A stretch of DNA of 64,000 bases from an uncultured Bdellovibrionales bacterium. Its GTDB lineage: Bacteria; Bdellovibrionota; Bdellovibrionia; Bdellovibrionales; UBA1609. Numbering within the stretch: position 1 is the stretch's first letter; every line of letters starts with the position of its first letter. This document shows, one piece after another, positions 14,151-15,533 of this stretch. Where the stretch lies: the NCBI GenBank assembly GCA_903833275.1, contig CAILEP010000016.1:175865-239864 (forward strand), in the 5' to 3' direction. The translations under genes were made by a program, and so were the position numbers. The notes below the pieces were generated by a model. It did no database searches. It worked only from the letters and a program-made list of their open reading frames with translations, and was not told the origin of the DNA.

Positions 14151-15236
14151 ATGAAACGCAAAACCCTGGTTATTTTAGCGACGGCGCCCAATGAGGTCGA
14201 CCCTTTGGCCAAATTTCTTCGCGCTGAAGGGTGGGATGTTTTAATAAGTTGCGACTTATTTGAAATCAAAACTCTGCTTTTAATTAAAAAGCCCAATTTT
14301 TTTATGCTCAGCGAGGCTTATAAAAACTTAAATTCAAAGGCTGAGCTTGAAAAGCAAGGTGAGAGCGACGGGTTTTCGGTCATTATGTTTGATGAGCACG
14401 TCACTGATTTTCTGGGTAAAAACCCAAAGGGCAACACCAAATACAATCTCACTCAACCGATTTCGGGGCCCGATTTTTTAAGCCTGGTAGAACAGATCAG
14501 TCGCGATTCGTCTTCTACTCAGCTAAACAACCCGACTGCGATCAAAAAAGTTCTGCGGCCCATCGCTGAAAAAACAATTAGCGAAGTCTCTAGCGGCGGA
14601 AAGCTCGCGCAAAAAGAGTTTTTAACGACCGGAGCCAATGCCCTTTGTCTTTACATCGACTCTTCACGATTTTCAGGTTGCTTCGTGACCGCACTTGGCA
14701 ACAATCGCCCAATGTCAGCGCCAATGGTTTCAAAAATTCAAACGAAACTCTCAGAATTTATCAAAAGCTCGAATGAGACTCTCAACACCATTGAGAAAGT
14801 TGACGTCACGCTAGGTTCGACCCACCTTGAAGACTGGGCCGTCAATAACTGCTCATTCACCCAAACGGGTATTCATAATGGCTCAGAGCTTTCGATTTCT
14901 TTTATGCCGGCCCTGCCGAAAGATTTAAGTTTTGAAGAGGGGCCGACCAAGGATATGTTTCAAATTTCAGTCGATGACATTTCGCCTGATCAAGTTATCG
15001 ACTTTGAATTGTATCATTTTTTGCAATTGAATAATAAATACGTGAGACTTTTTACTACCCTCGACAGCAAATCGCTTGATAGCTCGTCCGAAGACAAAAG
15101 CATAATTGAAGCTAGATTTAAGAAAATTAAATCTAGCACAAGCCACCTCTTTTTTAAAAAAGGTGAATTGCCATCCGCACAAGTTTACAAAGTAAAAAAT
15201 CGACTGGCCCAAAGCATTCAGCAAATGATCGTTTAG
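14151..15236 (+). CDS. Hypothetical protein with receiver-like N-terminus
   Basis: 361 aa intact ORF; N-terminal TLVILATAPNEVDPLAKFLRAEGWDVLIS resembles a degenerate receiver fold. Confidence 0.6.
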   Translation: MKRKTLVILATAPNEVDPLAKFLRAEGWDVLISCDLFEIKTLLLIKKPNFFMLSEAYKNLNSKAELEKQGESDGFSVIMFDEHVTDFLGKNPKGNTKYNLTQPISGPDFLSLVEQISRDSSSTQLNNPTAIKKVLRPIAEKTISEVSSGGKLAQKEFLTTGANALCLYIDSSRFSGCFVTALGNNRPMSAPMVSKIQTKLSEFIKSSNETLNTIEKVDVTLGSTHLEDWAVNNCSFTQTGIHNGSELSISFMPALPKDLSFEEGPTKDMFQISVDDISPDQVIDFELYHFLQLNNKYVRLFTTLDSKSLDSSSEDKSIIEARFKKIKSSTSHLFFKKGELPSAQVYKVKNRLAQSIQQMIV

Positions 15237-15260
15237 AGCCGACGCGATTTTGTTAGGTAG

Positions 15261-15430
15261 CCCCGACATGAATGCTTCGGCGCATCCTGCGCCTTCTGCC
15301 GAACATGTGACCGCGCGAGCGCAGCGAAACGCCCCAGTGGGGCGTTTTGATGTGACGCGGCCGCGAGAGGCTACGCCTCGGAGCGGTGGCGCTGAAAAGC
15401 GCCGGTCACATAAAGTAGGATTCATGCCCG
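15261..15430. repeat. tRNA-T-arm-bordered multi-hairpin element
   Basis: CCCCGACATGAAT + 26-nt insert + CGAACATGTGACC at left (tRNA T-arm copy), inverted GGTCACAT...ATTCATG at right; hairpins AAACGCCCC/GGGGCGTTT, GAGGC/GCCTC, GGCGCT/AGCGCC between. Confidence 0.75.
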
Positions 15431-15456: not shown

Positions 15457-15533
15457 TGGTGTCCCCGACATGAATCGAACATGTGACCTATCGTTTAGGA
15501 AACGATCGCTCTATCCAGCTGAGCTACGGGGAC
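15457..15533 (-). tRNA. tRNA-Arg (anticodon CCT), CCA encoded
   Basis: Minus strand GTCCCCGTAGCTCAGCTGGATAGAGCGATCGTTTCCTAAACGATAGGTCACATGTTCGATTCATGTCGGGGACACCA folds as a cloverleaf; anticodon loop TTCCTAA. Confidence 0.95.

Follow-up and report, generated by a model that had tools for sequence, protein, structure and literature searches.

Behind a tRNA-Arg(CCT) gene of an uncultured Bdellovibrionales bacterium lies a split copy of the gene's own 3' end, accompanied by an inverted partial copy and several hairpins, which raises the question of what kind of element this is and whether it belongs to a known class. The window, i.e. the whole stretch of DNA that was analysed, is 64,000 nucleotides long and comes from a 3.08-Mb draft genome, G000 (G000:C16:175865-239864). 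On balance, we lean towards reading the stretch behind the tRNA as a divergent tRNA-linked repeat (TLR), a hairpin-rich RNA-coding element made by read-through of the tRNA gene and built from copies of the tRNA end.

Anatomy of the element behind tRNA-Arg(CCT)

The split T-arm copy with its 26-nt insert, the inverted copy and the three hairpins that had been described in an earlier note on this DNA are all present, as confirmed by sequence reading and repeat search (Table 1). The element is to be read on the minus strand, since it is positioned 3' of a minus-strand tRNA gene, and in that direction the tRNA-CCA is followed after about 30 nt by the anti-tail and then by the hairpins, the 5' T-arm copy, the insert and the tail copy. 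Both copies of the T-arm/acceptor end, the inverted partial one and the direct one, lie at most 220 bp 3' of the tRNA. Repeat search found CCCCGACATGAAT of 15261-15273 again at 15463-15475 and CGAACATGTGACC of 15300-15312 again, with 100% identity, at 15476-15488; the insert between the split halves (15274-15299) is exactly GCTTCGGCGCATCCTGCGCCTTCTGC, and an 18-nt repeat family joins 15256-15273 to 15458-15475 at 89% identity. The 3' end of the element thus agrees with the tRNA end over 13 exact nucleotides (16/18), the corresponding match being 16-21 nt in many other elements described below. The minus strand folds with a z-score of -2.96 against shuffles.

Table 1. Features of the tRNA-Arg(CCT) locus, in window coordinates
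Feature	Position	Strand	Basis
tRNA-Arg(CCT), host gene of the element	15457..15533	minus	ARAGORN; Rfam RF00005, 67 bits
Whole tRNA-linked element, beginning ~30 nt past the tRNA CCA	15256..15426	minus	sequence reading and repeat search
Anti-tail, inverted partial T-arm copy: GGTCACAT (15404-15411)...ATTCATG (15420-15426), plus-strand letters	15404..15426	minus	sequence reading and repeat search
Hairpin GGCGCT-GAAA-AGCGCC	15388..15403	no strand	sequence reading and folding
Hairpin GAGGC-TAC-GCCTC	15367..15379	no strand	sequence reading and folding
Hairpin AAACGCCCC-AGT-GGGGCGTTT, terminator-like stem	15327..15347	no strand	sequence reading
Direct copy of the 5' T-arm half, GGTCACATGTTCG on the minus strand, 13/13 identical	15300..15312	minus	repeat search
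26-nt T-loop insert GCAGAAGGCGCAGGATGCGCCGAAGC (minus-strand letters), hairpin with CAGGAUG loop	15274..15299	minus	
Tail copy, 3' T-arm half plus acceptor strand, 13 nt exact, 16/18 overall	15256..15273	minus	repeat search

The gene pilR lies just upstream of the tRNA (Pfam). A 361-aa protein is encoded convergently with it at 14151-15236; this protein is without a Pfam family and without a match beside the orthologous tRNA in relatives.

Recurrence behind other tRNA genes

Apart from the element itself, a search of G000 with the window element returned only short matches to hairpins; the best one, 25 bp long, lies behind tRNA-Val, inside an element of like design. The 3' flanks of all 37 tRNA genes found in G000 were read, and about a dozen of these genes proved to have an element of this kind behind them, in every case with the end of the tRNA to which it is joined. 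Own-end copies, direct and/or inverted, occur behind Pro-GGG, Val-TAC, one Met, Ser-CGA, Gly-GCC, Glu, Arg-TCT, Leu-GAG (where the element consists of two tandem units), Leu-TAG, His and Asn; one more Met tRNA seems to be divided over the ends of two contigs. The direct copy starts at about A58 of the T-loop in most of the elements, that of the window included. As a control for chance, the last 40 nt of each tRNA were compared with 500 nt downstream, in own and in swapped tRNA/flank pairs. At least 12 nt were shared in about ten of the 37 own pairs and in 8 of about 1300 swapped pairs, counted once overlapping tRNA-cluster pairs had been removed, and the tRNA-end copies are thus in excess of chance. 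The many copies sought on the suggestion of the earlier note are accordingly absent as sequence, the element being single-copy, and present as a design.

Two designs can be distinguished. Type A, which includes the elements of Val, Pro, Met, Ser, Gly and Glu as well as that of the window, has the T-arm copied on either side of an insert whose hairpins carry CAGGA(U/A/C)G; the insert of the window copy is a close match to the final hairpin in the element behind tRNA-Val. Type B, found behind Leu-GAG and Leu-TAG, consists of an anti-tail, a three-hairpin core and a tail copy.

One explanation to be weighed here is that the locus is the attachment-site remnant of a tRNA-integrating island, as the earlier note had also considered. 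A direct repeat of a tRNA 3' end is what the usual attB location would give; the repeat is, however, split by a 26-nt hairpin, only about 200 bp, without an integrase gene, separate the copies, one island would be needed for each of a dozen tRNAs that share cores, and the inverted copy, which follows the tRNA (see below), is left unexplained. We consider this origin extremely improbable.

Other sequences also recur behind tRNA genes. Three tRNA 3' flanks of G000 (L081, L082 and L084) share GGCTCTACGCCAAAAGCGGGGGCAACC... and three (L081, L100 and L107) share GGTTCTACTCGGTTCGTAGTGGGTAATTT...; each sequence is thus found downstream of three different tRNA genes, several contigs end there, and both are probably insertion-sequence ends. 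A further core of about 90 bp (L064-L068, L070 and L125; best copies 84-95% alike) directly follows the CCA of Val, Pro, two Met and, more weakly, Ser tRNAs, within locus-specific inverted arms, and an orphan copy of it adjoins a short recombinase-like ORF.

A covarying RNA family in the Bdellovibrionota

Six type B units from three genera were aligned (A1) as the basis of a covariance model, R1. In A1, 17 of 29 pairs show two-sided changes, and the covariation score is 0.62, compared with 0.28 for shuffled alignments and at most 0.14 for slid structures. Extension to 72 distinct type B sequences, in an alignment biased towards the structure because the model had been used to fit it, gave compensatory changes in 28/29 pairs and a score of 0.655 (shuffled, 0.226; slid, at most 0.108). 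G-U occupies 130 cells of the type B alignment and A-C 9, an excess that marks type B as RNA read from the tRNA strand. Type B constitutes a genuine family of RNAs with a supported fold. The covariance model that the earlier note had called for has in this way revealed strong RNA covariation, in the related type B family; of what it had thought would tell against its reading, single-copy sequence is indeed the case, and covariation in relatives is present. No Rfam family covers the elements: at the gathering score Rfam returned tRNA genes only, with nothing credible below the threshold.

Both R1 and a type A model, R2 (see below), were searched over the Bdellovibrionota, two E. coli loci and the loci of a DNA pattern scan, with E-values that are rough because the calibration was short. 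Among the 142 genomes of the order, 28 have R1 matches, as do 78 of the 374 of the phylum Bdellovibrionota, with none in the five same-genus genomes. Copy number ranges from 0 to 15 among relatives, the maximum of 15 occurring in one 1.5-Mb genome, and several genomes of one genus with 3.5-4-Mb genomes have a single copy, for which the tRNA, where seen, is always tRNA-Gln. The pattern scan of named genomes gave mostly chance matches; only L312 (a Pseudobdellovibrio MAG), L313 (a Bdellovibrionaceae MAG), L314 and L326 are clear elements by R1. In the G009 genome, behind tRNA-Gly(TCC), an assembly gap of N lies between two copies of the tRNA end (L204); it is probably a collapsed element array.

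A same-strand tRNA lies upstream of 55 of 67 R1 hits, counting one doubtful case in which it is only 3 nt away (L302), and several of the others are at contig ends. One element of the phylum set sits behind a tmRNA and has a tmRNA-specific anti-tail. The R1 model also scores the Val and Pro elements of type A, weakly, at 18 and 13 bits, a cross-match that hints at a relation between the two types. The window copy reaches 7.7 bits with R1, on the opposite strand and not above background.

The anti-tail follows the host tRNA

For the 54 hits with a usable upstream tRNA, the anti-tail matches its own tRNA over 12.2 nt and other tRNAs over 5.6 nt, and the tail copy over 15.1 and 5.3 nt, respectively. 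Tail copy and tRNA are discordant at 12 aligned positions, and at all 12 the anti-tail is complementary to the tRNA; in G140, moreover, several tail copies have decayed and the anti-tail is still long and exact. The anti-tail is therefore tied to the tRNA, either through selection for pairing or through ongoing inverted-repeat copying. That it is kept for pairing with the tail copy is ruled out by the same 12/12 positions.

These observations bear on the proposal that the element is a cis regulator of its own tRNA, in which the anti-tail would pair with the T-arm and acceptor strand of the precursor and delay or block its maturation, the tail copy would compete and the core would sense a signal. 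Complementarity that follows the tRNA and not the copy, the G140 pattern and the conservation of a structured core would all suit such a regulator, but terminators often stand between tRNA and element and the TLRs of E. coli tRNA operons are without a known role (PMC8144298), and regulation of this kind appears distinctly unlikely.

Sporadic presence and mobility

The element at tRNA-Arg(CCT) is present in G000 and G006, and none is found at the pilR-linked orthologous tRNA-Arg of seven relatives (G001, G002, G003, G005, G025, G036 and G041). These relatives keep the tRNA-Arg/pilR neighbourhood, but their downstream sequence is unrelated, and the empty site of the window could not be reconstructed from it. 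In Bdellovibrio-like genomes, type A cores also occur away from tRNAs within outer inverted repeats of local DNA (L384, L395, L388, L383 and L397); such repeats surround 5 of 17 type A loci away from tRNAs, with scores between 13 and 31, where controls reached 10 at most.

The possibility has to be considered that these are selfish, small, non-autonomous RNA-structured elements which always enter in the same orientation, behind a tRNA or tmRNA gene, with the anti-tail recognising the target by base pairing, the tail copy as target duplication and any regulation secondary. Presence in G000 and G006 and absence at the seven orthologous sites, the spread of 0 to 15 copies among relatives, the tandem arrays, the fixed orientation and similar distance, the tracking of the tRNA by the anti-tail and the inverted repeats of up to 31 bp around cores away from tRNAs are all in keeping with it. 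What speaks against it is that no enzyme is linked to the elements and that the conserved tRNA-Gln copy of several Bdellovibrio-like genomes looks vertically inherited. Reverse transcriptase (PF00078) has no match in G000, and mobility of the retron or group II kind is not supported. Y1 (RAYT-type) transposases are absent from G006 and G045, which have 15 and 8 type B copies, and number eight in G001, a genome without a type B copy (the comparison counted type B only, and G001 has one weaker type A hit); RAYT-driven REP mobility is likewise not supported. Neither the window element nor the tRNA-Gln element of the Bdellovibrio-like genomes was matched in searches of phages, and among the plasmid matches listed only the tRNA part of the query was covered. 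A selfish origin remains rather unlikely in our estimation. The tRNA-derived palindromic repeat of MITE/REPIN type that the earlier note had envisaged survives in so far as dispersal among tRNAs is sporadic and mobile-like; a family of sequence copies is lacking, and RAYT genes do not accompany the elements.

Another short core, CAGTCCTCG-hairpin-TGCGGAACTC, occurs in long local inverted repeats at L376 and at L003, the latter just behind tRNA-Arg(CCT) in G038 with about 38 bp per arm.

Both copies of the tRNA end could also be a functionless by-product of DNA fold-back, made by template switching at terminator palindromes and kept alike by quasi-palindrome correction. In some cases, such as the Leu-TAG element (L246), tRNA tail, terminator and anti-tail do form one continuous palindrome, and other, unrelated cores have perfect inverted flanks as well (L003), but a conserved, covarying core shared across the phylum, with G-U far above A-C, is left unexplained, and we judge this account very unlikely.

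Relation to the tRNA-linked repeats of E. coli

TLRs have been known from E. coli since 1978, where 22 such sequences are described, each closing with 18-19 bp that are identical to the 3' end of the tRNA or rRNA preceding it (PMC8144298). They are without known function except for the binding of CsrA and Hfq by three of them, RrA/B/F, which sit between two terminators, arise by read-through and bind both proteins in vitro, with GGA motifs needed; the TLRs of tRNA operons, unlike RrA/B/F, are not predicted to bind CsrA (PMC8144298).

Comparison with tyrT, tyrV and rrnB of E. coli K-12 showed that in the tyrT and tyrV repeats the tail copy is 19 nt long, begins within the T-loop and is accompanied by a copy of the 5' T-arm and by inverted copies of 10 nt, and that the rrnB TLR combines a 13-nt exact tail copy with a GGCGGGCAGGACGCCCGCC hairpin whose loop is CAGGACG. 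R2 was built from Bdellovibrionota elements only, leaving out E. coli and the window copy, and in the two E. coli loci searched its top five matches are the rrnB TLR and four tyrT TLRs, at 24.4 to 14.6 bits, followed by 4.0. The scores are modest; since R2 ranks the TLRs at the top, type A and the E. coli TLRs look like one kind. R1 did not find the E. coli TLRs (9.7 bits at best); type B is similar to them in layout, and it is from layout that a relation is drawn. R2 gives the window copy 6.1 bits, for the hairpin alone, and because neither model recovers this diverged copy, its assignment to the TLRs is based on shared anatomy and the tRNA-Val-like insert. Of the three suggestions of the earlier note, the structured RNA or processing element with its insert in the T-loop is the one favoured by the data: a copy split in the T-loop is seen again behind other tRNAs of G000 as well as in the TLRs of E. 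coli, and related elements covary strongly.

Proposed working

If the window element is a TLR, transcription may run beyond the tRNA into the element, as in E. coli, and the tail copy might be handled by tRNA/rRNA-end processing, setting the 3' end of a small RNA by analogy with RrB. Since a terminator separates many of the elements from their tRNA, read-through must be occasional. The T-loop insert at about position 58 would supply hairpins with GGA-type loops, the rest of the tRNA end forming the tail copy; the hairpin loops, many of them GGA, could hold an RNA-binding protein such as CsrA/RsmA, and pairing of the anti-tail with the tRNA end is conceivable. Type B loops have GGA in 45/67 and CGA in 18/67, so that some elements must have a partner other than CsrA, and a CsrA-decoy reading for the whole set is ruled out. 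The elements themselves would spread sporadically among tRNA genes.

A bolder proposal, speculative and unlikely to hold in full, is that the TLRs of Enterobacteria and the Bdellovibrionota elements form one widespread mobile class of structured RNA, homing to tRNA, tmRNA and rRNA 3' ends by anti-tail pairing and picking up, on insertion, both a direct and an inverted copy of the end of the gene that receives it.

The results suggest that the TLR kind reaches another phylum, with compensatory changes in support of its fold, with an antisense arm tied to the host tRNA and with gain or loss between relatives. The old TLR puzzle might then be turned into testable options: the element could be a read-through sRNA through which an RNA-binding protein learns of tRNA transcription, it could regulate the tRNA to which it is joined, or it could be mobile as RNA and target tRNA ends.

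Comparison with known systems

Repeats of CsrB carry CAGGA(U/A/C)G in their loops, and CsrA SELEX sites are mostly short stems with six-nt loops (PMC7652899). The window and type A elements resemble CsrB/RsmZ in their CAGGA(U/A/C)G hairpin loops, the CAGGAUG of the window (15274-15299, minus strand) placing GGA in a hairpin loop as in CsrB-like decoys. They differ in being linked to tRNAs and in having one to few motifs each, with GGA not universal in type B. Binding of CsrA is a prediction; unlike the SELEX sites, the loops here stand on longer stems.

With REP/REPIN sequences the elements share the form of short, dispersed palindromic elements between genes, but the window element has no sequence copies, the ends are tRNA-specific and RAYT-family genes do not accompany them. 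Integrative elements targeted to tRNAs likewise duplicate the tRNA 3' end; here there is neither integrase nor cargo, and an inverted copy and a conserved RNA core are present instead.

The closest likeness is to the TLRs. Both lie directly 3' of a tRNA or rRNA gene on the same strand and end in a copy of the gene's 3' end, both can form tandem units, and at tyrT, too, an inverted copy and a copy of the 5' T-arm come before a tail copy that begins in the T-loop. The Bdellovibrionota elements differ in following many tRNAs and a tmRNA, with up to 15 per genome, in the phylum-wide covarying core of type B and in long anti-tails that track the tRNA, and the window copy in its minimal T-loop insert and extra hairpins. 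New relative to known TLRs are the antisense arm tracking the host tRNA, the phylum-wide spread and the sporadic presence.
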